DNA of 35,202 nucleotides, taken from a virus. Position 1 is the stretch's first letter. Each line of letters opens with the position of its first letter. The position numbers and the translations under genes were made by a program. The stretch covers positions 1-35,202 of IMG/VR virus record IMGVR_UViG_3300045912_000072, one strand, 5' to 3'. Positions 91-29,325 of this stretch are shown in pieces. Below the pieces are notes generated by a model that worked only from the letters and a program-made list of their open reading frames with translations, did not search any database and had not been told where the DNA came from.

Positions 91-212
91 TGGCGCAGAA
101 TATCGTCCAGCGTCCGCCACTCGTGCGGGCATTGGTCGGGGAATAACCATCGTCTGCCCTCGTGTTTGCATTGCAGGCAGAACACGATAAGTCGTCCAGT
201 GTCCAGCGTCAT
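1..212 (-). CDS. Zinc-ribbon protein, N-terminal part (runs off left edge)
   Basis: The ATG at 212 overlaps the stop of the upstream membrane protein gene (ATGA), which supports the start by translational coupling. The first 35 residues hold a zinc-binding pattern, FCLQCKHEG then WLFPDQCPHEW. The same WLFPxQCPHxW signature occurs in the partial protein at the right edge (35068-35202), so the two are paralogous or related. After about residue 45 this frame becomes Ala/Thr-rich while another frame shows a better zinc finger, so the real gene may end sooner or contain a frameshift. Role unknown. Confidence 0.55.
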   Translation of the reverse strand, partial: MTLDTGRLIVFCLQCKHEGRRWLFPDQCPHEWRTLDDILRQWRSRGKPTAASAATAAKYSPATATPPDTA

Positions 213-901
213 CCCCCAGCCGAATCCGTGCCGTCTCGAAAAGGGGCGCCCTGTTCGGGCTTTTCCTCCAGGATGGGCGGGACGAATGTCGTCTGCTGGT
301 AGCGTTTTTTGTCGGCGGGCAGGATGGGCATTTTCGGGTCGGCTTCGATGAGTCCCAGGTCACGCTTGACTTGTGACACAATATCGTTGTGTATCGTGTA
401 TGCCAGTTGCGCCTTTTGCTCGTCCAGTTGTTTCGTCGCCTGCTGGATGGCTTCGGTGACGATCTCGCCGCGGGCAATGCCCACGTTTATCTTTTCGTGG
501 ATATCCGGGGCGGTCGCATGGTGGGCGTAGAGCAGGGCGGCGTGCAGGGCGGTGACGATAATGAATCCGTACACCATCCATTTACCGATGTCGCCGCCTT
601 CGATCTGCCCGCTGGACAGCATGACTTCGGCGCCGACCATGCCCAGGGTGCCGACGAAGCCGACGATAAAGCCGAGGGCGGACGTGGCATATTGTCCCGT
701 ACTCTCGGACTTGAACACGAACGCCAGCGCCCAGCACATGGCGGCAATGTCGAACATGACCAGTCCCCACATGCGGTTTACCAGGCTGTCGGGGAAGATG
801 CGGGCGAGGGCGGAATACGTCAGAGACATGAGCAGGGCGAGGACGGCTACACCGAACGCGCCAAAGATGTACTTGCTTGCGACTTGAAGAACCTTTTTCA
901 T
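209..901 (-). CDS. Four-helix membrane protein with cytoplasmic tail
   Basis: This 230-residue protein begins with about 115 residues carrying four hydrophobic segments (near residues 13-35, 42-64, 75-97 and 108-126), then a polar tail with a helical, Gln/Lys-rich stretch and a Pro-rich end. It overlaps the upstream lipoprotein gene by a few bases, so both are probably translated together. A protein of the same architecture (four membrane helices plus charged tail) lies at 33401-34078, again beside an SH3b lipoprotein and a zinc-ribbon gene. No family is recognised. A role in the host envelope, such as superinfection exclusion or lysis control, is conceivable but not shown. Confidence 0.8.
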   Translation of the reverse strand: MKKVLQVASKYIFGAFGVAVLALLMSLTYSALARIFPDSLVNRMWGLVMFDIAAMCWALAFVFKSESTGQYATSALGFIVGFVGTLGMVGAEVMLSSGQIEGGDIGKWMVYGFIIVTALHAALLYAHHATAPDIHEKINVGIARGEIVTEAIQQATKQLDEQKAQLAYTIHNDIVSQVKRDLGLIEADPKMPILPADKKRYQQTTFVPPILEEKPEQGAPFRDGTDSAGG

Positions 902-1608: not shown

Positions 1609-1623
1609 GATGCGCCTCCTATG

Positions 1624-1732
1624 CTATGGGAATGAAATCGGATGCACTCGCTTCGAGGTCAACCGCGAGGTTTAGATACCGCTGGGTTGTGGCTACGTTT
1701 TCATGTCCCAGCAGAGTCGAAATTTGGGGCAG
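1624..1732 (-). pseudogene. Tyrosine recombinase remnant (C-terminal catalytic end)
   Basis: One - strand frame reads QISTLLGHENVATTQRYLNL and about 14 more residues to a stop. LLGH-x5-TTQRY is the last catalytic block of phage/Xer-type tyrosine recombinases: the His of LGH and the Tyr nucleophile of QRY are both present. Everything upstream (the Arg box and core-binding domain) is missing. The fragment is fused at DNA level to the 5' part of a lipoprotein gene read in another frame. It does not show the TTMIYTHV form seen in integron integrases, so it looks like an ordinary phage integrase remnant. Confidence 0.8.
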
Positions 1733-1829
1733 GGGAGAGGGTCACGGTCGGCGCCGCGGTCTCGGTCGGCAAGGTCAGGCACGCCGAGAGGGTCACGGTC
1801 AGAATTGCAGTGAGTAATAATCGCGTCAT
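1701..1829 (-). CDS. Truncated lipoprotein (42 aa) fused into integrase remnant
   Basis: The product starts with a lipoprotein signal peptide, MTRLLLTAILTVTLSAC (lipobox LSAC, Cys17), followed by a short T/P-rich linker, and ends at a TGA inside the integrase remnant. The ATG has a good GGAGG site. The 5' half resembles the start of the SH3b lipoproteins at 898-1212 and 32575-32949 but the SH3 domain is gone. The simplest reading is a deletion joining a lipoprotein gene to an integrase gene. It begins about 45 bases past the last attC site, so it is either the final cassette gene or the sequence flanking the array. Confidence 0.6.
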   Translation of the reverse strand: MTRLLLTAILTVTLSACLTLPTETAAPTVTLSPAPNFDSAGT

Positions 1830-1873
1830 TCAGCCTCCAGTTTTGGGTTATAGTCGCGCGATCGCGGCGTGCC

Positions 1874-1932
1874 GTCTAACTCGTCTGATTTGGCGGACAC
1901 GTTAGCCCCGTCCGCTGCACGCGGTGTTCGGC
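1874..1932 (-). mobile_element. attC: attC recombination site e (59 bp)
   Basis: Read on the - strand the site begins with R'' GCCGAAC (1926-1932) and ends with R' GTTAGAC (1874-1880), fitting the attC consensus RYYYAAC...GTTRRRY. The inner arms GCGGAC and GTCCGC are complementary. At exactly 59 bp it has the length of the classical 59-base element. The segment next to R'' (ACACCGCGTGCAGCGGACG) is nearly the same as in sites c and d. The gene 1876-2109 ends inside it, as cassette genes often do. Confidence 0.85.
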
Positions 1933-2109
1933 GGCTTGCTGTGGAGTTACGATTTCGATGACGCGCACTATCACAATTACCTTGTTAGTTTTTTTAGCAA
2001 GATCAAGCGCGTGCCTCATTGCTACGGGTTTCTTTTTTGCACTAGCGTCAAAGACGCTGTGTAAATCTTTGTGCGGAACTATCAAATAATTATCGTAAAG
2101 AATTGGCAT
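1876..2109 (-). CDS. Cassette-borne small protein
   Basis: A 77-residue protein beginning MPILYDNYLIVPHKDLHSVF. Its start lies inside the end of the preceding gene (20-base overlap), so the two share one cassette and are probably coupled. The last 19 or so codons are read from the attC site itself. Base composition is more AT-rich than the phage backbone. No family is recognised; the middle has an alternating basic/hydrophobic pattern without clear motifs. Confidence 0.65.
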   Translation of the reverse strand: MPILYDNYLIVPHKDLHSVFDASAKKKPVAMRHALDLAKKTNKVIVIVRVIEIVTPQQAAEHRVQRTGLTCPPNQTS

Positions 2110-2560
2110 ATATTCCTTCTTTTGGCTTTGCTAATTCAGAAGACATTTGAGCGCGTGTAACGCGGTTTGCTAATTGTTCTGGAGACTCAATTGACGTATA
2201 AATTTTTCCATTGGTAAGGCGAATTTCTGACGTGTTTCCTTCGCGTTCAATTATCGCTTCAATCAAACCAACATTCAGGTAAAAGGTATCTCCACCAGCG
2301 CGGGGTCTTAGTGAAATCATCATATTATTTTCCTTTTTTTGGCTCTCGCACTGTCCACACATCACAACCTTATCGCCGCTCACTGGATCAATAACAATCC
2401 AGTCATCTAATTCATCTTCCTTAATTTCAAAAGGCTGTTCGCAGTAATCGCAAAATATCGTCATGCAAGTTCTATCACCGCGCCCGAAATCTAACGCGCT
2501 GAAACACCTATTCCTCGGGTAATCTTCGCCATGCAGATCAGCCCATTCTTCGAGTGACAT
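2090..2560 (-). CDS. Cassette-borne protein with CxxC zinc-binding motifs
   Basis: The start was set at ATG 2560 because GAAAGAAAGG precedes it; a TTG at 2587 in the same frame is the alternative. The 156-residue product has CDYCEQPF and, 28 residues on, MCGQC, forming a likely zinc ribbon, then a region (about residues 80-135) with beta-like pattern (LRPRAGGDTFYLNVGLIEAI). The gene starts about 35 bases past the R' end of attC d, the normal place for a cassette gene. It is AT-rich relative to the phage. Function unknown. Confidence 0.75.
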   Translation of the reverse strand: MSLEEWADLHGEDYPRNRCFSALDFGRGDRTCMTIFCDYCEQPFEIKEDELDDWIVIDPVSGDKVVMCGQCESQKKENNMMISLRPRAGGDTFYLNVGLIEAIIEREGNTSEIRLTNGKIYTSIESPEQLANRVTRAQMSSELAKPKEGIYANSLR

Positions 2561-2594
2561 AATTTTTACCTTTCTTTCGGTTAGCAAGGAAGCC

Positions 2595-2719
2595 GCCGAA
2601 CGGTTTGCGTCAGCGGCGGGGCGGTTTAGTATCGCAACCGCTCAAACACAAACCACTTTTAGCAGATTTATCTGAGCCACACAAAGCGCAAGCCCCGTCC
2701 GCTGCACGCTGTGTTAGAA
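2595..2719 (-). mobile_element. attC: attC recombination site d (125 bp)
   Basis: On the - strand R'' TTCTAAC (2713-2719) opens the site and R' GTTCGGC (2595-2601) closes it. The arms AGCGG-A-CGGGGC and GCCCCG-CCGCT pair with one unpaired A, the extrahelical base typical of folded attC bottom strands. The central part is long and imperfect, as in 100-130 bp attC sites. The R''-proximal segment is nearly identical to that of site c. Confidence 0.85.
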
Positions 2720-2880
2720 AGCGTTTTACGTTTGCCGCGGTAACATCTTGCGGGTGTTGGGCGGCTACATGCCTCACAGTAGTAGTAACCATCTATAACA
2801 ACCATAGATGGGATATAGTGTACTTCGTGACACTCACCACAGTGACCATATTCATCATTTAATAGTTCAAGAGCATCCAT
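2668..2880 (-). CDS. Cassette-borne 70-aa CxxC protein
   Basis: ATG at 2880 follows an AAGGA site. The protein holds CGECHEV and, about 20 residues on, YYYCEACSRP, a four-Cys zinc ribbon in its first 40 residues. From about residue 55 the codons come from attC d, so the functional part is probably only the zinc ribbon. It is the only gene in its cassette, which is about 310 bp in all, small but within the usual range. Confidence 0.7.
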   Translation of the reverse strand: MDALELLNDEYGHCGECHEVHYIPSMVVIDGYYYCEACSRPTPARCYRGKRKTLSNTACSGRGLRFVWLR

Positions 2881-2905
2881 TTTTGTTTTCCTTTCTGGGC
2901 GTGCC

Positions 2906-3030
2906 GCCCAACGGTTTGCGTTAGTTGCGGGGCGGTTCTGGCAAGACCGCTTCGCTCTCACGCACATCAGCAGGCAAGACCCGCTGGAATTGGGACGCAG
3001 TAGCCCCGTCAACTGCACGCTGTGTTAGGT
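2906..3030 (-). mobile_element. attC: attC recombination site c (125 bp)
   Basis: R'' ACCTAAC (3024-3030) and R' GTTGGGC (2906-2912) bound the site on the - strand. Arms GTTG-A-CGGGGC and GCCCCG-CAAC pair with a single extra A, at the same place as in site d. The matching change in both arms (GTTG/CAAC here, GCGG/CCGC in d) is a compensatory difference, which argues that the folded form is selected. Confidence 0.88.
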
Positions 3031-3664
3031 GCGCTAATGCCTTACCGCCTATGTATTCGGTATATGCTGGCGGAACTGCTTCACGCAACCCTTCAAAGTC
3101 CATCCAATCAATGCCGTATGCTTCGGGGGCGTATGACGTTGATTTTCTTTTTACACCTTCAACCAATGGGCGGGCGTGACAACTGTTACTGCCTGCCGTT
3201 GTCACGAATAACTGCTCCATGCTGTGATTGCATGTTGCAGGTGAAAAGATTGTGAATGATGTTTCAAAGAAACGGTGACGGCGTGTTTTTAGATTGAACA
3301 TCGTACCGCAAAGTAAAAGCGGAGCATGTAATAATTTTCTTGCGCCTGCCACATTTTCAATGCAATAAGGCTTTCCAAACTTGCGGAGTATTTCAACGAC
3401 AACAGGAAGTAAATCAGGATGATTATCTTTCGTATGCTTTGGGGTCATCGTTGAATATCTTTGGCAAGGTGGCGAAGCGTGAATAAAATCGAACTCGTGA
3501 CCATGCGCCGCTAGGTATTCGAGCGCGTCTGCTTGGTGGAACTCGAAGGGATATTGTGGCTGTGGGTCTCGGTCAATTCCTACGACTTCAAAACCAGCGC
3601 GGGAATAACCCATACCACAACCACCAGCCCCACAAAATAAATCGAGCAACTTTGCTTTTGCCAT
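2921..3664 (-). CDS. C5-cytosine DNA methyltransferase (cassette gene)
   Basis: The 247-residue protein transfers a methyl group from S-adenosylmethionine to cytosine C5. Visible motifs: I (KLLDLFCGAGGCGMGYSRAG), IV (SPPCQRYS, with the catalytic Cys), VI (IENV), and VIII-like RRHRFFE. It is shorter than bacterial restriction-linked enzymes (usually over 320 aa), like several phage orphan enzymes. The start at ATG 3664 lies five bases after the R' core GTTAGGT, whose AGGT may act as the ribosome binding site. The C-terminal 35 or so codons come from attC c. No restriction endonuclease is next to it, so protection of phage DNA is the likely role. Confidence 0.9.
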   Translation of the reverse strand: MAKAKLLDLFCGAGGCGMGYSRAGFEVVGIDRDPQPQYPFEFHQADALEYLAAHGHEFDFIHASPPCQRYSTMTPKHTKDNHPDLLPVVVEILRKFGKPYCIENVAGARKLLHAPLLLCGTMFNLKTRRHRFFETSFTIFSPATCNHSMEQLFVTTAGSNSCHARPLVEGVKRKSTSYAPEAYGIDWMDFEGLREAVPPAYTEYIGGKALAHLTQRAVDGATASQFQRVLPADVRESEAVLPEPPRN

Positions 3665-3669
3665 GAAGC

Positions 3670-3796
3670 ACCTAACGGATTGCATTACTGGCAGGTGGCG
3701 GGCTGAGATAAAACCCGACGAGCCGATAATGCCTGAAGTGTAGTAAATGTTTGGGAGGTGGACGATTCCACCTGTCCAGTGCATGCGGTGTTCGGC
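3670..3796 (-). mobile_element. attC: attC recombination site b (127 bp)
   Basis: R'' GCCGAAC (3790-3796) and R' GTTAGGT (3670-3676) on the - strand. Arms ACTGG-A-CAGGTGG and CCACCTG-CCAGT pair perfectly around one extra A. Its arm sequence differs from sites c, d and e while keeping the fold and the AACACCGC-TGCA start, as expected for different cassettes from one integron lineage. Confidence 0.88.
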
Positions 3797-4209
3797 GGCG
3801 TAAAGACTACTATGCTTAGAGGCTGAGGTAAACCATGCTCTGCGCCTACGAATTTAGGACGACCACGAACAAACCTGACTTCACCTTTCATGCAAAAATC
3901 GTGCCACCAATTTGTATTTGTGCGAGAAGGCAAAAGACAAACAACGGTTGCGCCTTCTTGCGCTGACTGATAAGCCTTGCGAACCCATTTCCCCTGCTCA
4001 CCAAATGGCGGATTCATCCAGCAGATACCTTTCCAAACTTGTGCAAGCCCGTTGTCGGCAATCGTGTAAAATTGTGGACACTTGGCATTTTGAGCCGTAG
4101 CGCACACATCGAGAGTAAAGCCAAACTCATTATTCAACGGGTCAAATAATACCGCTGGCGTTTCCCAATCTTGGCGCACGCTATCGAACTTCGTTTTGAA
4201 CTGTGCCAT
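3685..4209 (-). CDS. Phage-type N6-adenine DNA methyltransferase (cassette gene)
   Basis: ATG at 4209 follows AAGGAG. The 174-residue protein matches the small Dam-like family of phage N-6-adenine methyltransferases: an early WETPAVLFDPLNNEFGFTLD block, motif IV as WMNPPFGEQGKWVRKAY, and a late VVFTP strand. It methylates adenine with S-adenosylmethionine; the target sequence cannot be read. The last 35 or so codons run into attC b. Together with the cytosine methyltransferase in the next cassette it makes a DNA-modification pair, presumably used against host restriction. Confidence 0.9.
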   Translation of the reverse strand: MAQFKTKFDSVRQDWETPAVLFDPLNNEFGFTLDVCATAQNAKCPQFYTIADNGLAQVWKGICWMNPPFGEQGKWVRKAYQSAQEGATVVCLLPSRTNTNWWHDFCMKGEVRFVRGRPKFVGAEHGLPQPLSIVVFTPPNTACTGQVESSTSQTFTTLQALSARRVLSQPATCQ

Positions 4210-4229
4210 TAGACTCCTTTTTCTTAGCC

Positions 4230-4349
4230 GCCGAACGGTGGGCTTTACAGGCGGCGGGCGGGATGTGCCTGAGTAGCGAGTAAAGCCCAACCATAACTAA
4301 TGATTTTTCGCGGGACGTACCCCGCCGTCCTGTGCAAGCGGTGTTAGGT
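4230..4349 (-). mobile_element. attC: attC recombination site a (120 bp)
   Basis: R'' ACCTAAC (4343-4349) and R' GTTCGGC (4230-4236) bound the site on the - strand. Arms CAGG-A-CGGCGGG and CCCGCCG-CCTG pair around one extra A. The segment after R'' (ACACCGCTTGCA) fits the form shared by all five sites. It is the first site met when reading from the promoter at 4939. Confidence 0.85.
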
Positions 4350-4506
4350 GTGTTTCACCATTTATCACGCTTGTTTCATACGCCGACCAACTGGAGTAGC
4401 CAGCCTGCATAGCCTTCTGATTCAACTGCTCGCGGCGTTTGCTCTGGCGTTGTGTAATAGTGCTATCTTTCCAGTGTGCTTGGTGAGTACGAGTTTTCTT
4501 TTTCAT
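4297..4506 (-). CDS. Cassette-borne small basic protein
   Basis: A 69-residue Lys/Arg/Gln-rich protein (MKKKTRTHQAHWKDSTITQR...). It starts four bases after the stop of the 123-aa gene, so the two are one transcription unit inside the first cassette. The final 17 codons lie in attC a. The basic N-terminal half may bind nucleic acid, but no motif is recognised. Confidence 0.6.
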   Translation of the reverse strand: MKKKTRTHQAHWKDSTITQRQSKRREQLNQKAMQAGYSSWSAYETSVINGETHLTPLAQDGGVRPAKNH

Positions 4507-4510
4507 GGTG

Positions 4511-4882
4511 TTACTTGATGACTGCTAATACTTTGGCGTTTTCGATAACTCGCTCACCTGGATCTGTGCCTTGCGACTCGCTCCAGCCACCAAGTAAAAC
4601 GATATGCTTGCCACCATGATAGGGAGCAACATCAGATATTGATTCTTCAATTCGTTCGATCAAATCTCCCGCCCCTTCCAACCACGAATTATCAAGCATG
4701 ATTGCCGATGTTCCATTCAGCTCTTCGTCAGATGAGCAATCATTTTCCATGTCCCAATCGTAGCTGTTGCGGGCATAATCGCCAACCGTGTACTTCTCGT
4801 CAGGGCAAGCACTTCGCAAACCTAAAACATTGTACTTGCTGATTTCTTCGTAGTTGTTGGTTACTTGATTTTTCCAGTTCAT
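4511..4882 (-). CDS. Cassette-borne acidic hypothetical protein
   Basis: The 123-residue protein (MNWKNQVTNNYEEISKYNVL...) is acidic, with a central LDNSWLEGAGDLIERIEESI helix and a Gly-rich HIVLLGGWSESQG strand-turn near the end. AAGGAG lies at the right distance from ATG 4882, and a consensus promoter lies 30 bases further upstream. It is the first gene of the cassette series and so would be the most strongly expressed. The family is not recognised; the composition is AT-rich compared with the phage. Confidence 0.75.
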   Translation of the reverse strand: MNWKNQVTNNYEEISKYNVLGLRSACPDEKYTVGDYARNSYDWDMENDCSSDEELNGTSAIMLDNSWLEGAGDLIERIEESISDVAPYHGGKHIVLLGGWSESQGTDPGERVIENAKVLAVIK

Positions 4883-4910
4883 TTCATTTCTCCTTGATCG
4901 TTATATTCCT

Positions 4911-4939
4911 ATCTTACTGCACGTTATATAGCGTGTCAA
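4911..4939 (-). promoter_or_regulatory. Promoter for the cassette array
   Basis: On the - strand TTGACA (4934-4939), a 17-base spacer and TAAGAT (4911-4916) make a near-consensus sigma70-type promoter. Transcription should begin near 4904, 22 bases before the first cassette start codon, and run through all the cassette genes. Because it lies downstream of the core-site motif at 4988-4994 it would be inside the first cassette. Confidence 0.8.
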
Positions 4940-4987
4940 GGGTTGGAGAGACACCAATTTGGGCTGTAATGAGTTTGCAAGGTACAC

Positions 4988-5010
4988 ACCTAACTAGAGA
5001 TTAGACGGAA
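4988..5010 (-). mobile_element. Possible cassette insertion (attI-like) core site
   Basis: The - strand has GTTAGGT at 4988-4994, an exact R' core of the kind ending the attC sites. Five bases before it is GTCTAAT, one base off the inverse core RYYYAAC; a short-spaced L/R pair like this is the simple-site layout of attI. It marks a plausible left boundary of the first cassette. A 19-codon frame (4990-5049, ATG overlapping the stop of the upstream gene) ends on this motif, which could be a cut-off gene. No integrase gene is nearby, so attI identity is only inferred. Confidence 0.4.
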
Positions 5011-5045
5011 CGAAGCAAGATGTTCATACGCTAGTTTTTCAAAAC

Positions 5046-5207
5046 TCATTGTGAAACTCCTTTCATAAACGCCCGTACGGCGTCCATCACGAATTTTTTT
5101 ATCTGTCCGCCGCGGCCACGTGAGACGCTGTAGCCCATCGCGCGCGCGGCATTGACAATCTCCTCGTGGTCTTTTTTGCTAATAAAAATGGTAGTGTAAT
5201 CTTTCAT
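5046..5207 (-). CDS. Small possible ribbon-helix-helix-type protein (53 aa)
   Basis: ATG at 5207 opens a 53-residue frame beginning MKDYTTIFISKKDHEEIVNA and ending in a basic/hydrophobic helix (IKKFVMDAVRAFMKG). A beta-strand-like TTIFIS followed by two helices is the size and layout of small Arc/CopG-like DNA-binding proteins. It has its own promoter at 5214-5242 with an operator-like spacer, so it could be a regulator acting on that site. This is inference from size and pattern. Confidence 0.6.
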   Translation of the reverse strand: MKDYTTIFISKKDHEEIVNAARAMGYSVSRGRGGQIKKFVMDAVRAFMKGVSQ

Positions 5208-5213
5208 GCTCTA

Positions 5214-5242
5214 ATCTTATCGGATAATCTATAGTTTGTCAA
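5214..5242 (-). promoter_or_regulatory. Promoter with operator-like spacer, inside dnaB 3' end
   Basis: TTGACA (5237-5242), 17-base spacer, TAAGAT (5214-5219) on the - strand. The spacer contains TATAGATTATC, also found between the -35 and -10 of the early promoter at 11874-11901. The shared sequence inside both promoters is a good candidate repressor or activator site. Confidence 0.75.
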
Positions 5243-6551
5243 TAGCCGCGCTTACAAATTCAGTAAACTGCGGTCTCCAGATGACCTTGACGCTGCCAGT
5301 CTTGCCGTTGCGGTGTTTCTGCACGAGCAACTCGGTTCGAGTATCTTCATCCTTGCGGTAGATGAAGATGACCGCATAAGCGTCCTGTTCCAACGCTCCG
5401 CTCTCCCGCAAGTCGGAAAGCACAGGACGCTTGTCTGCACGCTGTTCAACTGCACGTGATAACTGCGCGGCGGCAATGACCGGGACATTCATCTCTTTCG
5501 CAAGACGTTGTAATCCACGCGAGACTGCGGCTACCTCCTGCTCGCGCGTAAAAGCGTCCTCGTCACTGCCAGCGAGTTGGACGTAGTCGAAGAAAACAGC
5601 GTCTACTTTTCCATATTTCGCAACAGCGCGGCGCGCGATATTCCGCACTTCAGCAATCGTAAGTCCTGACATGTCATTGAAAATGAAGTTATTTTTATAC
5701 TCTTCAAGCCGCTCAATTGCCTGATGGCATCGTCCCCATTCTTTTTCGTCCATCTTCCCCCGCATGATTTTGAATAAATCAACCTGCGCCTCTTGTGAGA
5801 TAAGGCGCTGCGCGAGTTGCGCCTTTGACATTTCGAGCGAAAAGAATAAGACGCGCTTGCCGCTCTTGACCGCGTTCCGCGCGATTGTCAGCAGTAACGC
5901 GCTTTTGCCCTGACCAGGACGCGCGGCAACGATGTACAGGTTCGACGGCAGGAATGAACCGATGAGACGGTCGAAGTCAATAAGACCGCTTGCGATGCCA
6001 ATCTCTTCATCGCGTGCGGCGCGTTCGGTCGCATCATACGCTTCCGATAACGCTTCCGCAAGGTCGGCAGTGTACTCGTCGCCGGCGCCTGGAGGCGTCA
6101 TCTTCTGTAGTTTGCTGTACATGTCCGCGATAATGTCCGCCGCTTTGCGTCCATTCAAACTCTGCTCCGCAAGTTGATTTGCAAGCATGAGCAATCTGCG
6201 CTTCAGGCTGTAATCAACGACCAGGCTTGCGTAGTGTTCAGCCGCTCTTGGCTTGCCGTTGTCTATCATCATCGAGAGAACCGCGCGTCCGCTCCATGAA
6301 CCGCTGGCAAGTTTTTCGATTTCGCCGTTGCGCTCTAACTCGTCACCAACCGTGATTGAATCAATGCATAAGCTCTGCTCGTGTACCGACCTAATCGCGC
6401 TCCAGACGGTTTTATGCACGCCATCATAGAAGTCGTCTTCTTGAACGATTGTACTGACCTTCTCGTACACATCTCTGCCGCCGAGCATGACGCTGCCGAG
6501 TAGCGCCTGTTCGGCATAGCGCACCGCGTTTACATTGACTGCTGCATCCAT
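5229..6551 (-). CDS. dnaB: Replicative DNA helicase, DnaB family
   Basis: The 440-residue protein has the DnaB N-terminal helical domain (starts about residue 8: RYAEQALLGSVMLGGRDVYE), a linker, and a RecA-fold ATPase domain with Walker A ARPGQGKSALL (about residue 210), a Walker B-like DAVFFDYVQL and the later LSDLRESGALEQDA region with RKDEDT typical of DnaB. It unwinds DNA ahead of the fork as a hexamer. Length matches the family (about 450). It follows an initiator-like gene with iterons, so the phage brings its own helicase. The start overlaps the end of the upstream gene by 22 bases. Confidence 0.95.
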   Translation of the reverse strand: MDAAVNVNAVRYAEQALLGSVMLGGRDVYEKVSTIVQEDDFYDGVHKTVWSAIRSVHEQSLCIDSITVGDELERNGEIEKLASGSWSGRAVLSMMIDNGKPRAAEHYASLVVDYSLKRRLLMLANQLAEQSLNGRKAADIIADMYSKLQKMTPPGAGDEYTADLAEALSEAYDATERAARDEEIGIASGLIDFDRLIGSFLPSNLYIVAARPGQGKSALLLTIARNAVKSGKRVLFFSLEMSKAQLAQRLISQEAQVDLFKIMRGKMDEKEWGRCHQAIERLEEYKNNFIFNDMSGLTIAEVRNIARRAVAKYGKVDAVFFDYVQLAGSDEDAFTREQEVAAVSRGLQRLAKEMNVPVIAAAQLSRAVEQRADKRPVLSDLRESGALEQDAYAVIFIYRKDEDTRTELLVQKHRNGKTGSVKVIWRPQFTEFVSAAIDKL

Positions 6552-16849: not shown

Positions 16850-17302
16850 ATGAACCCGAACAGTCCGCAATCCACCAAACGCGCCAAGACTGCCGAGCGC
16901 AAAAAGCAAGCCCTCGCCCGCAGAATCGGCGGGTGGACGTTCGCGCAGATTGGCGAGGAACTTGGCATTAGCACGCAGGCTGCCTACAACCTGGTCAAAT
17001 CTGCGCTTGCCGAGACGAATGCGAAGACGGCAGAGGAAGCCGAGATACTGCGCCGTCTTGAACTGGAGCGTCTGGACACCATGCGCAGCGCGATATGGGG
17101 ATTAGTGCTTAAGGGAGACGTGCAGGCGATTGACCGCGCGTTACGGATTAGCAAGCGCATGAGCGAACTTACTGGTATTGATGCGCCTGCCAAGACTGAC
17201 ATCACCAGCGGCGGAGAGAAAATCGAGGTCGTTATTAAATATGCAGACCGTGACGATACAACTTCCGAAACTCCACCAGGCGCAGCAGAAAATTCTGCGT
17301 GA
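16850..17302 (+). CDS. terS: Terminase small subunit
   Basis: The 150-residue protein has an N-terminal helix-turn-helix (RIGGWTFAQIGEELGISTQA, about residues 25-45), a helical oligomerisation region and an acidic tail. It recognises phage DNA and passes it to the large subunit. It lies directly before, and overlaps by 62 bases, the large terminase gene. Size and layout fit TerS of HK97-like phages; the call rests on these and position. Confidence 0.85.
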   Translation: MNPNSPQSTKRAKTAERKKQALARRIGGWTFAQIGEELGISTQAAYNLVKSALAETNAKTAEEAEILRRLELERLDTMRSAIWGLVLKGDVQAIDRALRISKRMSELTGIDAPAKTDITSGGEKIEVVIKYADRDDTTSETPPGAAENSA

Positions 17303-18431
17303 GCGCAAGAGGCGCAACGTGATAGCCTGCGGCAGGCGTTTCGGCAAGAATGTGTTGCTGCAAGATTTAGCGGTCGAGTGCGCACTAAAATTACGCGCTC
17401 CGTGCGGATGGGGCGCGCCAGTGTATAAGCAAATGCTCGAAGATTACAATTCTCTCGCCAACACGCTCGCGCCAGTTATCACGCGCAAATCAGCCGCAGA
17501 GATGCGGCTTGACCTGCTCGGCGGCGGCGTCATCCAATTCTGGTCGCTGGAGCGTCCTGACAGCATTCGCGGCAATAAGTACAGGCGTTTCATCGTCAAC
17601 GAGGCTGGCTTCGTGCCTGACCTGCTCGACATCCGCAATTACATCATCATGCCGACACTGATAGACATGCAAGGCGATGAGTACTATAGCGGGACGCCAA
17701 AGGGCATGAACGGCTTTTTTGCGCTATACAACCAGACGGGCGAGGACTGGGCGCACTGGCAAATGTCATCGTACGAAAATCCGCACATTCCGCGCACAGA
17801 GTTGGACGCGCTCAAAAATGTGATGACTGAACGCGCGTTTCAGCAAGAGATACTCGCGCAGTTTCTGGAAGATGGTGGCGGTGTGTTTCGTCATGTGAAC
17901 GCAGCGGCTGTGCTAGAGCCAGAGCAGCCGCAGCCTGGTAAGCAGTACGTTATCGGCGTGGACTGGGGACGCTCCGAAGACGCGACCGTCTTTTGCGTGC
18001 TTGACAGCGAAAGCAAGCGGCAGGTCTGGCTTGACCGCATGACCGACACAGACTATGCCAGTCAGCGGCTACGGCTGAAGGCATTATCGGAACGGTACAA
18101 TAACGCGCCAGTTATCGCGGAAGCGAACAGTATCGGTCAGCCGAACATCGAGGCGTTACAGCAGATGGGCGTAGGCGTGACTGGCTTCACGACAACGAAC
18201 GTCACAAAAGCGCAAATCATTCAGGAATTGGAACTCGCGTTTGAGCGCGGCGAGATTGTGCTGCTCAAAGACGACGTGCAGACAAACGAACTGCTCGCGT
18301 TTCAGAGTGAGAAGTTGCCGAGCGGACTTGTGCGTTACAGCGCGCCAGATGGAATACATGATGATACCGTGATGGCGCTTGCACTGGCATGGCATGGACG
18401 CTCGCGTCCGCTGGTAATTTTTGGAGTGTAA
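17241..18431 (+). CDS. terL: Terminase large subunit
   Basis: Start taken at ATG 17241, as the conserved sequence begins QLPKLHQAQQKIL right after it. The 396-residue motor has Walker A as ACGRRFGKN, Walker B as RFIVNEAGF, a coupling-like YYSGTPKG, and a C-terminal nuclease domain with VDWGRSEDATVF and a closing DDTVMALALAW. It packages DNA into the prohead using ATP and cuts it at the ends. It is slightly short for the family. The Asp of the Walker B DE pair is Asn here (VNEA), which is unusual. Confidence 0.95.
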   Translation: MQTVTIQLPKLHQAQQKILRERKRRNVIACGRRFGKNVLLQDLAVECALKLRAPCGWGAPVYKQMLEDYNSLANTLAPVITRKSAAEMRLDLLGGGVIQFWSLERPDSIRGNKYRRFIVNEAGFVPDLLDIRNYIIMPTLIDMQGDEYYSGTPKGMNGFFALYNQTGEDWAHWQMSSYENPHIPRTELDALKNVMTERAFQQEILAQFLEDGGGVFRHVNAAAVLEPEQPQPGKQYVIGVDWGRSEDATVFCVLDSESKRQVWLDRMTDTDYASQRLRLKALSERYNNAPVIAEANSIGQPNIEALQQMGVGVTGFTTTNVTKAQIIQELELAFERGEIVLLKDDVQTNELLAFQSEKLPSGLVRYSAPDGIHDDTVMALALAWHGRSRPLVIFGV

Positions 18432-20599: not shown

Positions 20600-21090
20600 T
20601 GATACGCTTCAACGTGAAGGCAAAGCCATCCGAATTGATGAAACTCATCTCATCCGCTCCACGAATGGCGCGCGGCAAGATGACCGAAGCCGCGGCGAAA
20701 TACATCATCGGCGACATGGAGCGCGGCGCAAAGCATTATCCGCCGTACAAGTATGTCTCACGCAAACGCGCATACGGTAGGACTTTCGTCAGCGAAAGGC
20801 AGCGGCGATATGTGATGGCGATGATACATGCAGGCAGAATTGACCCTGGATACCCCCACCGCACTGGCATTATCCAGCGCGGATGGTACATCAAAAACAG
20901 CGGCGCAAAGGCGACTATCGCCAATGACGCGCGAGGCGTGGACTTCGTTCACGGTGACAAGAAGCAGGCGCGGCTAAACAAACTCGCAGGCTGGCGCACA
21001 GTCAGCGAAATCGCAAAGGCGAACATCAAAGGCGCGATAAAAGCAGCGGAGCAAGCGCTCAAAGAATACTTGAAAGAAAAGGACTTGTAG
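20599..21090 (+). CDS. Minor head/neck-type hypothetical protein
   Basis: The 163-residue basic protein (MIRFNVKAKPSELMKLISSA) is of the size and position of head-tail closure or gp10-like proteins, with a helical start, a Arg/Tyr-rich middle and a long basic C-terminal helix. No sure family. Its ATG overlaps the stop of the MuF-like gene. The promoter for the capsid leader lies in its last codons. Confidence 0.6.
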   Translation: MIRFNVKAKPSELMKLISSAPRMARGKMTEAAAKYIIGDMERGAKHYPPYKYVSRKRAYGRTFVSERQRRYVMAMIHAGRIDPGYPHRTGIIQRGWYIKNSGAKATIANDARGVDFVHGDKKQARLNKLAGWRTVSEIAKANIKGAIKAAEQALKEYLKEKDL

Positions 21091-21098
21091 AGTAGAAT
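21070..21098 (+). promoter_or_regulatory. Internal late promoter before the capsid gene
   Basis: TTGAAA (21070-21075), 17-base spacer, TAGAAT (21093-21098), a sigma70-like promoter in the 3' end of the preceding gene. Transcription would start near 21105, giving a leader of about 115 bases before the capsid fusion gene. Confidence 0.6.
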
Positions 21099-21104
21099 AC
21101 GTCT

Positions 21105-21200
21105 AACTGAATAACCAGGTGGCGGCTCGTAAACCGCTGGCGAATGTCTCACGAACGTGAAGAGGACTTGTAAATCCTGCGCGTTGGCGTGGGATTTTTT
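21105..21200 (+). ncRNA. Structured leader ending in an intrinsic terminator
   Basis: Three short hairpins follow one another: GCGG-CTCGTAAA-CCGC (21122-21137), TCAC-GAAC-GTGA (21149-21160), AGGA-CTTGTAAA-TCCT (21163-21178). Two share the loop CTYGTAAA. The last overlaps the 5' arm of an 11-bp terminator stem (21172-21182 with 21187-21197, loop GTTG) followed by T6, so the two cannot form together. The transcript may be a small RNA of about 95 bases or a regulated leader for capsid expression. The class is not recognised. Confidence 0.6.
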
Positions 21201-25634: not shown

Positions 25635-27780
25635 AATAGAGGTCGTAGCAAAGGACGCCGCATCAGGAATATTGAGCAAGGTTACCGGCTCGCTCGGCAG
25701 GATGTTCGAGGTTGCCGGCGGCTTTGTGATTCACGACATCTTTGGCGGCATTGCTCACGGCATTGGCGAACTGGCGGGCAAGGCAAAAGAATTTGGCATT
25801 GAGTCAATCCTCGCTGCCGCTCGCGTAGAAGAGATGGCGACGGTCAATGCAGTCCTGGCGGAAAGAGCGGGATTATCAAAGGAAGCGGTGCAAGAAGCCG
25901 CAAAATCAGTCCAGAAAATGGGCATCGAAGCGGCGACATCGCAAGAGGTCATCGCGGAGTTTATCCGCGCTCAACTTGACGTTTCAAAAGCGGCTGACAT
26001 CGCCCGTGTCGCGCAGGACGCGGCAATCATCTCTGGCATCAACTCTTCGGAAGCAACAAATCGTATCGTAGAAGGTATAGTCAAACTTAACCCGCTCATT
26101 CTTCGCAACGCTGGCATCGTCGTTGACCTGGATGAAGCGTATAAGAAAATGGCGGAGCAGTTGGGGATAAATGTGAAGGATTTGACGACCAGTCAAAGGC
26201 AGCAAGCGGCTCTGAACGCCGTCATGGAAGCAGGCGCAAATATCGCAGGCGCGTATGAGGCGGCTATGTCTGAACCTGGAAAAGTGCTGCGCTCATTCCC
26301 GCGCTATTTCAACGATATTCAGGTTGCGATTGGCAAGCCGTTTCAGGACGCTTTCGGTAATGTTATCTTTGCCGCCGCAGACCTGGCGAAATGGTTCGCT
26401 AAAGCGGTGCAAGAAGGAGGGCCGCTTTATCCTGTCTTGAAATCAATCGCGGATAAGGCGACTGAATTATCTGGAAAACTGCGCGACATTGTGAACTCAA
26501 TTGTTGCGGGAGACTTTGACGCGGCTAAAGAAAAATTCTTATCATTATTCCCGCCGCAAATTGCAGGCATTATCGGGACAGTCATTGGAGGGATAGAGAG
26601 CCTGATGTCCGCGCTCGGTGGTGCTGGCGGGGGCGGAATATTCAGCCAATTGCCGGAACTGCTTTCCGTGTTCGCTCCGCTTCTGCCGCTTGTGTCTGGA
26701 ATCGGCGGGATTTTCATGCAGTCGCTATTGCCCGCTTTTACGCAACTTGCACAGCAACTCGCGCCGATTGTGCAGCAATTTTTGCCTGTACTGGTACAAA
26801 TGTTATCGTCAACCGCCATGACGGTTCTCAACGCATTATTACCGCCGTTCGTGCAACTGATTACCACCATCCTGCCAGTGCTAATGTCACTGCTCACTCC
26901 ACTTTTACAGACTTTCGGGCAACTGGTAGCCGCACTCGCCCCGCTCGTTGGCACAATCCTGAATGTGCTGGTCACACTCATCCTGCAACTGGTAGAAGCG
27001 TTTATGCCGCTCGTGCAGGCGATTTTGCCTGTACTGGTGCAACTCATCAGCGTAGTGGCTGGAGCGTTTACAGAAATAATCTCAGCCGTGCTTCCGCCGC
27101 TGATTGACCTTGTGATGATGGTTGTCAATGCGTTCTTGCCGCTTATTCAGGCGGTGCTTCCACTGCTCGCAAATCTTTTGCAAGTAGTAGTTATCGCTAT
27201 CACGCCGCTGATTGCCGCAATCTTACCTGTGCTGGTCAAGTTGATTGAGTTGCTCGTTACCGCGCTCGTGCCGCTTATAAATCTGGTCTTGCCGCAACTG
27301 ACGACACTTTTCGGCGCATTGAGCAACTGGCTGGAGGCGAAGGTCATACCCGCCGCGCAGAAACTTGCGGGATGGCTCAATGAGCATCTCAAGCCAGCGC
27401 TGGAGGGTGTCACTTCCGCAATTCAAACAGCAATTGAATGGCTGAGTAATTTGTGGGATAAATTCAACTCCAGCATCAAACTCCCAGAATGGCTCACGCC
27501 TGGCTCGCCAACTCCGTTCGAGATAGGCTTGCGCGGCATTGCTGACGCGCTGCAAGAAGTATCGGACACTGCCATGCCAGCATTTCAATCATCGCTGGCG
27601 CTTGCGCCTGCCGGCGTCAACGCTCCAGCGGCTGCGTTTGCCACTCCACAGCCAGTGACGGTGGTGCTGAATTATTCGCCAGCGCTCTCGCTTGCTACGC
27701 AAGAAGAAGCGCAGCGCGTTCTCTTGCCATTTATCCAGCGCGGCATTCGAGACGCGCAAAAGAACCAGCAGATACGGTGA
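25621..27780 (+). CDS. Tail tape measure protein
   Basis: The 719-residue protein starts at GTG 25621, overlapping the chaperone extension. It has an N-terminal Gly/Ala-rich helix region, a long central hydrophobic part (about residues 310-580) built from repeated LP-x-LV-x-L-type units of about 10-22 residues, and a C-terminal domain with a PEWLTPGSPTPFEIGL motif. It sets tail length; with about 0.15 nm per residue a tail of roughly 100-110 nm is expected. The hydrophobic repeats may form the membrane-crossing segment on ejection. Confidence 0.93.
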   Translation: MAQVEIEVVAKDAASGILSKVTGSLGRMFEVAGGFVIHDIFGGIAHGIGELAGKAKEFGIESILAAARVEEMATVNAVLAERAGLSKEAVQEAAKSVQKMGIEAATSQEVIAEFIRAQLDVSKAADIARVAQDAAIISGINSSEATNRIVEGIVKLNPLILRNAGIVVDLDEAYKKMAEQLGINVKDLTTSQRQQAALNAVMEAGANIAGAYEAAMSEPGKVLRSFPRYFNDIQVAIGKPFQDAFGNVIFAAADLAKWFAKAVQEGGPLYPVLKSIADKATELSGKLRDIVNSIVAGDFDAAKEKFLSLFPPQIAGIIGTVIGGIESLMSALGGAGGGGIFSQLPELLSVFAPLLPLVSGIGGIFMQSLLPAFTQLAQQLAPIVQQFLPVLVQMLSSTAMTVLNALLPPFVQLITTILPVLMSLLTPLLQTFGQLVAALAPLVGTILNVLVTLILQLVEAFMPLVQAILPVLVQLISVVAGAFTEIISAVLPPLIDLVMMVVNAFLPLIQAVLPLLANLLQVVVIAITPLIAAILPVLVKLIELLVTALVPLINLVLPQLTTLFGALSNWLEAKVIPAAQKLAGWLNEHLKPALEGVTSAIQTAIEWLSNLWDKFNSSIKLPEWLTPGSPTPFEIGLRGIADALQEVSDTAMPAFQSSLALAPAGVNAPAAAFATPQPVTVVLNYSPALSLATQEEAQRVLLPFIQRGIRDAQKNQQIR

Positions 27781-27783
27781 CGC

Positions 27784-29325
27784 ATGACAGATAGACGCTA
27801 TGGCGTAAACAAGTATGGCGACGGTAAACTGTACGGTCATTCTGACCCGCAGCAGTCGCTCGCTTATGGACTTCTGGTGGACTGGGACAGGGACGGCATT
27901 TTCGAGGGCAATGAAGCGGACAGGATGTTATCGTGGTCATCGTTTCGCGGGCGACGCAATTACATCCGTCCGACTGGTGACGGGTACGAACCCGTCCAGA
28001 CTGGCAAACTGACCGTTGACCTGGACAACTCGGACGGACGCTATGATGGCTGGAACGCTGATAGTCCGCTTTATCCGAACGTGACTTACGACGCCGAAGC
28101 GATTTTCCTCGTCCGCGATCGCGATATGACTTCGACCATCAAATATAACATCTTTCGCGGCGTCATCACCGACATTCGCACATCAGGATATGGAAACAAC
28201 GCGCGTGTGACGCTGGAGATTTCAGACGGCTGGCAGTACCTGCGCGACTATTCGGCGCGGGTGGCAATGCAGACGAATATTTCGCCGTCCGCCGCGATTG
28301 GCTTGATTTTGGATTACATCAAGTGGCCGCCTTCTTGGGGGCGCGACTTGTCTCCAAGCACAGACACAATCAAATACTTTTGGGCGAACGGCAATAAGCA
28401 GGCGGCGTCCGTCATTCAGGAGATTACAGACTCATTCGTCGGCTACTTCTACATCACAGCAGACGGCAAGGCAGCGTACCGCAACCGCACAGACATCACA
28501 GCCAGCGTATATGACTACGACCAGTCTGAATTGCTGCGAGACATCGGCTTGCCACAGCCGTATGAGATACGGCGGAACGTCACACGCATCAAGACCTATC
28601 CTCGTGCAATTGCCGCGACTGGCGTCATCTGGCAGTTGGTCGGCGATACGCCGATTATTTATCCTGGCGCGTCGAACAAGAAGACAATCTTCGCAAACTA
28701 CACATACAACGACGAGCCGGTCCCGGCACAAAATGTCATCGCTCCTGTACCGACAACGGATTATCTCGTGAATACAGCGGCAGATGGCAGCGGCACAAAC
28801 ATTACATCGAGTTGCACAGTCGCGCTTACCGACTTTGGCGATACCGCGAAACTCGTCATCACGAACAACAGCGCATTCACGGGGTACATCACGAAGTTGC
28901 AGGTGCGCGGAGACGCGGTGTACCTGCAAAACAACGCTGACATCGTGTACGAGGAGCAGGATAGAAGACCGCCGCGCGAGTTTTTTCTCGATTTACTCTG
29001 GCAGCAGAACACGAACGTCGCCGAAGATTTCAGCAATCTGATTGGGCAGTTCATGAACCGCTTGAATCCATTTCCAATCGTGCAAATCGAAGCGCGGCCT
29101 GAAGCGCAATTCAAGCCAGACCTGTTCGATATTGTGTCGGTCAGTATTCCGAAACTTGGCATACATGGAAATAGTTTTCGCGTCGGCGGCATCGAACATC
29201 ACAGCATCGGCGATAAGTGCAATGCGGTGCGAACCACTTTGTATCTTGAGAGTTATGTCTCATTTGAAAGTCTATGGACTTTTCCGATTACCGACTTTGG
29301 AACAGACACAAGATTTGGAGCATGA
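27784..29325 (+). CDS. Tail tip/baseplate minor tail protein
   Basis: The 513-residue protein follows the tape measure by three bases. The beginning (YGLLVDWDRDGIFEGNEADR, with a Ca-binding-like DWDRDGIFEGNE loop) is common in phage tail-tip proteins; it continues with strand-rich parts (TGKLTVDLDNSDGRYDGWN, YNIFRGVITDIRTSGYG) as in hub-type proteins. It should sit at the distal end of the tail and hold the fibres. Confidence 0.8.
   Translation: MTDRRYGVNKYGDGKLYGHSDPQQSLAYGLLVDWDRDGIFEGNEADRMLSWSSFRGRRNYIRPTGDGYEPVQTGKLTVDLDNSDGRYDGWNADSPLYPNVTYDAEAIFLVRDRDMTSTIKYNIFRGVITDIRTSGYGNNARVTLEISDGWQYLRDYSARVAMQTNISPSAAIGLILDYIKWPPSWGRDLSPSTDTIKYFWANGNKQAASVIQEITDSFVGYFYITADGKAAYRNRTDITASVYDYDQSELLRDIGLPQPYEIRRNVTRIKTYPRAIAATGVIWQLVGDTPIIYPGASNKKTIFANYTYNDEPVPAQNVIAPVPTTDYLVNTAADGSGTNITSSCTVALTDFGDTAKLVITNNSAFTGYITKLQVRGDAVYLQNNADIVYEEQDRRPPREFFLDLLWQQNTNVAEDFSNLIGQFMNRLNPFPIVQIEARPEAQFKPDLFDIVSVSIPKLGIHGNSFRVGGIEHHSIGDKCNAVRTTLYLESYVSFESLWTFPITDFGTDTRFGA

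Follow-up and report, generated by a model that had tools for sequence, protein, structure and literature searches.

A tailed-phage genome with an integrase-less integron cassette array, and integron integrases in related phages

Integrons are usually seen as platforms that bacteria use to capture genes and that phages carry only occasionally. Integron cassette arrays without an integrase (CALINs) are already known in phages: Qi et al. 2023 (PMC9892861) describe 17 CALINs and a few integrons in a set of 21 phages, with Tetrasphaera phage TJE1, Polaribacter P12002L, Pseudoalteromonas PH101, Vibrio anguillarum prophages, P1 and a Shewanella prophage as examples, and report methyltransferase cargo and activity of IntI1 on phage attC sites in Escherichia coli. 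Among bacterial integrons, those of Treponema (PMC3607928) transcribe intI toward the array, the reverse of the usual layout. In the open PMC literature, with preprints and most subscription papers outside the search, we found neither Chloroflexota phage integrons nor a dedicated phage IntI clade described. Here we examine the IMG/VR virus record IMGVR_UViG_3300045912_000072, studied as the whole record of 35,202 bases (the window). It is a tailed-phage genome and carries a CALIN on its minus strand. Sequence comparisons make it highly probable that this array is part of an integron system carried by phages; the host of this tailed phage most likely lies in Anaerolineae (Chloroflexota). It also seems probable that the system is a dedicated phage-integron lineage, with its own IntI clade, intI transcribed into the array, an attI at the intI 3′ end and a phage-specific, methyltransferase-rich cassette pool for counter-defence swapping, in which the window phage would be an integrase-less participant.

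The cassette array of the window

The array consists of four complete attC sites, one decayed site and five cassettes containing open reading frames (ORFs):

1841..4994, minus strand: integron-type cassette array, read from 4994 down to about 1841
4230..4349, minus strand: complete attC, 120 bp (58.9 bits, E 2e-16)
3670..3796, minus strand: complete attC, 127 bp (75.5 bits, E 2e-21)
2906..3030, minus strand: complete attC, 125 bp (75.9 bits, E 1e-21)
2595..2719, minus strand: complete attC, 125 bp (64.5 bits, E 4e-18); its minimum-energy bottom-strand fold pairs the L arms and is attC-hairpin-like
1841..1932, minus strand: decayed or truncated attC (16.2 bits); 5′ arm intact, 3′ arm and GTT box lost
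4236..4993, minus strand: cassette 1, ORF 4882-4511 (phrog_18666, unknown) and ORF 4506-4297; ends complementary at 9/12 positions
4939-4911, minus strand: promoter-like TTGACA-17-TAAGAT in cassette 1
3676..4235, minus strand: cassette 2, N6-adenine DNA methyltransferase gene 4209-3685 (PF05869 Dam); ends 9/12
2912..3675, minus strand: cassette 3, C5-cytosine DNA methyltransferase gene 3664-2921 (PF00145); ends 7/12
2601..2911, minus strand: cassette 4, 70-aa ORF 2880-2668, with an R″ remnant, GCCCAAC, at 2762-2756 that fits the cassette's own start
1928..2600, minus strand: cassette 5, two cassettes fused, ORF 2560-2090 and ORF 2109-1876; ends 11/12
2327..2345, minus strand: fusion junction; an attC is present here in the phage locus L019, but the window lacks it, and the reading frame continues

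The scores derive from a covariance model, R1, built from 38 aligned attC sites that all come from bacterial genome records (Anaerolineales-type) and include no phage sequence; the window was scanned with filters off. An earlier note, made from the letters of the window, had proposed five attC sites of 59-127 bp and covariance scoring as their test. Four of them stand far above background, at 58.9-75.9 bits compared with 10.3 bits for the best match outside the sites, and these complete sites are 120-127 bp long. The fifth, starting at 1932, is the decayed one, and its 59-bp length is spurious, with the supposed R′ at 1880 (GTTAGAC) sitting inside the loop. A complete site ending at 1880 was rejected: the intact homologue in phage G021 (L021 10257-10166) has a full 3′ arm and shows that the one in the window is lost.

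Within the R1 alignment, 93% of cells pair, and double changes fill 116 cells against 41 in shuffles (0/500); shifting the pairing partner by one column abolishes the pairing. The minimum folding energies of single window sites do not clearly separate from those of shuffles (z −0.6 to −1.8), so the evidence for attC rests on covariation rather than on stability. An Rfam scan of the window gave zero matches, hence no attC family for support. A generic attC pattern proved too insensitive (1/4 window sites, and 1/4 of the known phage arrays used as controls) and was not used, nor was a model made from a class 1 attC alignment of eight sites, mostly near-identical 60-mers.

The sites start AACACMGCNTGCASNNGACRG and finish GCNAACCGTT, or nearly so. 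Two bases are extrahelical in them, a G close to the spacer and the A in a GAC motif, where a single extrahelical A had first been described. The consensus boxes RYYYAAC and GTTRRRY fit in part, the spellings GCCGAAC, TTCTAAC and GTTCGGC also occurring; this kind of spelling recurs in other phage sites and in some bacterial ones. A CALIN is recognized by at least two attC sites with paired R and L arms and extrahelical bases, of which the window has four (59-76 bits), and by cassettes in one orientation, each gene followed by its attC, as is the case here. A complete integron would add intI and an attI beside it. The whole record has no match to TIGR02249, the integron integrase family, and no recognizable attI, and the array is a CALIN, as the earlier note had read it. 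Its genes do all lie on the minus strand, although their AT-richness is mild, with 47.4% GC in the array against 52.7% in the window.

Two details of the borders and units differ from that first reading. The GTT at 4994 does not close an attC, as had been supposed, but opens the first cassette, and it lies in the stop codon of a 19-codon ORF. The pattern of one gene per site breaks at 2600-1928, which comprises two fused cassettes, and after 2912, where the cassette holds the R″ remnant at 2762. An integron cassette excises as a circle, and its attC then joins the cassette's own first and last bases. Because cassettes leave as circles, the two ends of one cassette are expected to be complementary even if the two halves of an array site do not pair. 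In four of the five window cassettes the ends are complementary at 7-11 of 12 positions. The exception is cassette 4 (2911-2601), with 3/12 at its ends, whose start pairs instead with the R″ remnant. Across 108 phage cassettes the complementarity spans 7 nt past AAC/GTT (each position 71-94% paired) and then falls to chance level, and the mean end match is 7.04/10, compared with 4.36 for shuffled cassettes (0/5000). Such complementarity is a signature of the integron mechanism, which simple repeats or terminators would not show.

Comparison with other phages reveals how cassette 5 was formed. Window positions 2341-2619 are 89% identical in DNA to a cassette of phage G019 (L019) that ends in an attC exactly there, and for positions 2118-2337 the match, at 85%, is a cassette of phage L039 with its start immediately past an attC. 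Cassette 5 is thus two cassettes joined through loss of the intervening attC. Further homologous cassettes are common to otherwise different phages. Turnover of cassettes between phages is visible in this sharing and fusion; its absence from related phages had been named beforehand as evidence against an array.

Besides the two methyltransferases, the cargo of the window includes ORF 2560-2090, the second half of whose product is FlbD-like, below the Pfam cut-off. Cassettes of other phages encode C5, D12 and MT-A70 methyltransferases, an RNA ligase, a PAPS-reductase-like protein and a ribbon-helix-helix protein, but the cargo is mostly unknown. Methyltransferase-rich cargo, with RNA ligase in the relatives, suggests a swappable set of putative counter-defence genes. 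The set is perhaps transcribed from a promoter in the first cassette, the leader of which, with its promoter-like element, resembles the leader of the first cassette in the IntI-encoding phage L194. A promoter scan of the window gave 5 promoter-like matches where 4.7 are expected, which proves nothing alone.

Related phages and their integrases

Sites of the Anaerolineales type occur in 24/24 further IMG/VR viral records searched whole, with 1-10 sites each, and 19/24 have a terminase or portal match (two families searched). Two of these records are complete phages of 34-37 kb, G020 and G021, each with a 127-bp terminal repeat and hallmark genes. Pattern matches in L012, L016, L022, L027, L028, L035 and L037 were ruled out as attC, having zero match with R1. 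G020 encodes a terminase, a portal, a major head protein, its own phage integrase and a separate IntI. This IntI passes TIGR02249 (396 bits, cut-off 265), and its best PDB match is 2A3V, the integron integrase IntI4 (E 1e-78). G029, another of the 24 records, scores still higher, at 442 bits. G020 and G029 therefore have the intI of a complete integron, and two more of these records, G013 and G016, have a divergent IntI-like gene and an intI fragment, respectively.

A scan of IMG/VR yielded 255 loci with IntI relatives, the weaker of which may include other tyrosine recombinases. The 18 cleanly readable phage IntIs most like that of G020 form one clade (support 100/97) beside the Anaerolineae IntIs, and the clade is monophyletic in all 200 bootstrap trees checked. 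The window, having no IntI, is absent from the tree. The IntI translation of L187 could not be read cleanly; after standing out as an outlier in the first tree, it was omitted from the second.

These phages also share a layout. In 16/16 clade phages with detected attC sites the array is found downstream of intI and shares its orientation (in three only if the contig ends are joined), and G080, whose IntI is 43% identical to that of G020, likewise has an array that follows intI in the same direction. In 9/9 bacterial loci, one of which rests on a weak site of 16.8 bits, intI and array are divergent (Fisher p 5e-7). At the 3′ end of the phage intI genes a conserved ...GAATCATGA runs up to the GTT, the GTT being preceded by CTGTTGAATCATGA or a variant, and a different cassette follows in each phage. 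This combination is what insertion at attI would leave. In G020 the putative attI comprises the intI 3′ end through ...AATCATGAGTT. A phage attI was sought in the window and rejected, since its border, CTCTA before GTTAGG, differs from the phage attI, AATCATGA before GTT.

Further integrase genes and a fragment were noted. Phage G013 has a divergent IntI-like recombinase inside an attC array (L177:859-1908; 257 bits, cut-off 265), 30% identical to that of G020. Another 40 viral contigs in the tree encode IntI-like integrases of other lineages, some of them nearer to IntI1; two of these contigs, G052 and G075, have strong portal matches. No Anaerolineales-type attC was found in the searched viral contigs with IntI of other lineages. 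In G016, only a C-terminal intI fragment remains (20941-21138, L181), near-identical to the end of the G029 IntI and beside an intact attC array. This fragment is possibly a step from a phage integron to a CALIN.

The other genes of the window bear on its phage character and on its place among these relatives:

17178..18431, plus strand: terminase large subunit (phrog_2), phage hallmark
18421..19890, plus strand: portal protein (phrog_2662/12), phage hallmark
21220..22938, plus strand: major head protein (phrog_10), phage hallmark
27784..29325, plus strand: tail protein, 47-52% identical to phages G048, G020, G080 and G016
5229..6551, minus strand: DnaB-type replicative helicase, array flank, 50% identical to phage G021
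5046..5207, minus strand: small phage gene between DnaB and the array
4990..5049, minus strand: 19-codon ORF, stop codon inside the first GTTAGG box, array border
1619..1741, minus strand: remnant of a tyrosine recombinase C-terminus (LLGHENVATTQRYLNL), phage-integrase type (PF00589 E 0.002, below cut-off), adjoining the decayed array end

PHROGs identify terminase, portal, major head protein and tape measure; an endolysin gene is present, and Pfam identifies DnaB and RecT. A terminal repeat was looked for in the record and none was found. Phage genes lie on both sides of the array, which sits between DnaB and phage accessory genes as first described. The recombinase remnant may reflect a deletion at the decayed end of the array and a temperate ancestor. 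Near the array, the window (209-901) shares with G020 (27757-28389) a gene for a membrane protein, with 67% protein and 72% DNA identity; most of the two genomes otherwise diverge far more. DNA similarity to GenBank phages is limited to short methyltransferase matches, and DnaB used as bait among viral contigs recovered only distant relatives.

By the tail gene, the nearest phages are G048, G020 and G080, which encode IntI, and G016 with its fragment. By DnaB, lysin and methyltransferase the nearest is G021, complete by its terminal repeat, with eight attC sites and an array at another place. Both the integrase and the position of the array therefore vary among related phages. Since relatives encode IntI together with attI and arrays, the host would not be the sole possible source of recombinase for the window phage.

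Host and origin of the array

Pattern matches with a fitting 3′ arm in bacterial genomes fall mostly in Anaerolineales and other Chloroflexota. In two Anaerolineales metagenome-assembled genomes, arrays of the attC type seen in the window adjoin a complete intI (452 and 460 bits); comparison with bacterial integrons had been proposed earlier as a way to find the donor. IntI is present in 73/298 sampled Anaerolineae genomes, and relatives of the terminase in 43/396 (a search confined to this class, with no other class as control). The attC type, the placement of the phage IntIs and these terminase relatives make Anaerolineae the most likely host. Two contigs binned as a Bathyarchaeota metagenome-assembled genome, L077 and L132 (CALMWK010000082.1, CALMWK010000005.1), also carry Anaerolineales-type arrays, reflecting either bin contamination or cross-domain cassettes.

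In a phage-borne integron system, cassettes would excise and insert by IntI recombination between the G and the TT of attC, and the substrate, as in other integrons, would probably be the folded bottom strand. Related phages would supply IntI themselves, encoded directly upstream of attI and the array. Because the window phage has no intI, its cassettes would either have been left behind after loss of an ancestral intI and attI, or have been inserted by an IntI from a co-infecting phage or the host. We favor these two routes; the data do not separate them.

Several observations weigh against such a system. The window lacks both intI and a recognizable phage attI, and with one attC decayed and another deleted the array may be static. 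G021, which shares more replication, lysis and methyltransferase genes with the window than any other relative, has eight attC sites but no IntI match. Among the IntI contigs that were checked, six members of the phage IntI clade other than G020 have a portal match, and three of the six also a terminase match. Finally, all of these phages are known from metagenomic contigs alone, and none has been isolated.

The likeliest alternative is that the array was once built by IntI and is now a fixed operon without turnover. This is compatible with a phage-borne origin. It would explain the missing intI, the decayed terminal site, the deleted attC that fused two cassettes and the R″ remnant that has lost its site. 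Four sites nevertheless retain their paired arms in full, and such arms should degrade if the sites were neither used nor recent arrivals; host and phage sources of IntI are common; and other phages have cassettes in common with the window at 85-89% DNA identity. We regard a fixed array as possible but doubtful.

A second alternative makes the phages passive carriers, the array having been taken from an Anaerolineales chromosomal integron by host IntI or by faulty excision, as for the Vibrio anguillarum phages. Capture of host integrons by prophages is documented (PMC9892861), and the attC type is indeed that of Anaerolineales integrons with IntI. The cassettes themselves argue otherwise: those of the window are shared with other phages and with no sampled bacterial array, and the phage cassettes had zero matches, in DNA or protein, to 177 bacterial loci (only 1.18 Mb). 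The phage IntIs form a single clade with a layout unseen in the bacterial loci. Anaerolineales IntIs are 51-58% identical to that of G020; no IntI exceeds 58% full-length identity to it in the 298 Anaerolineae genomes (short partial matches reach 63%), and none closer was found in a further sample of 400 Chloroflexota genomes. A purely host-derived array is accordingly judged unlikely.

Bacterial contigs misclassified as viruses, or a chimeric integron-phage assembly, would be a third explanation. Misclassified contigs do occur in viral collections, and the present case is judged from assembled sequence rather than reads. The window, however, has terminase, portal, major head, tape measure and tail genes, with phage genes flanking the array on both sides; G020 and G021 have terminal repeats and hallmark genes, and the same architecture recurs in independent samples. 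An artefact is most improbable. As for ordinary intergenic hairpins (terminators or repetitive extragenic palindrome-like elements), they are common between genes and the fold energies do not clearly exceed shuffles, but this reading was rejected, and its probability is practically nil, on the family-specific R″, spacer, L arms, extrahelical bases and GTT box, all conserved with compensatory changes, and on a complementarity that links the two ends of a cassette, unlike that of terminators.

Comparison with known integrons

Taken as a phage-borne system, the array and its relatives suggest that gene shuffling by integrons, usually regarded as a bacterial ability, is also carried out by some phages with integrons of their own. 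If this is true, integrons would serve viruses too as a means of adaptation, through a phage-specific integrase lineage with its own attI and a common pool of cassettes. Concrete sites, integrases and cassettes are now at hand for asking whether phages swap anti-restriction genes site-specifically and whether they move cassettes between bacteria.

With class 1 attC sites (aadA, aacA4, cmlA1 and others), as read from their sequences, the window sites share the order R″, L″, L′, R′ and an extrahelical A six bases in from a second extrahelical base; they differ in sequence and loop length. The Treponema integrons (PMC3607928) are a known example of intI pointing toward the array and are likened to the phages here by layout alone, being chromosomal and bacterial. 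The Anaerolineales chromosomal integrons are closer, with the same attC family and a related IntI, but they have divergent intI and array, attC sites mostly of ~130 bp with a conserved loop, and no shared cassettes that we could find. The phages of PMC9892861 resemble the window in having attC arrays in phage genomes, small cassettes and DNA methyltransferase cargo. The complete integrons among them look like captured host integrons, whereas here one attC type is found in dozens of uncultivated phages, with up to 10 sites, together with a separate IntI clade, a putative attI of its own and a layout unseen in the bacterial relatives.

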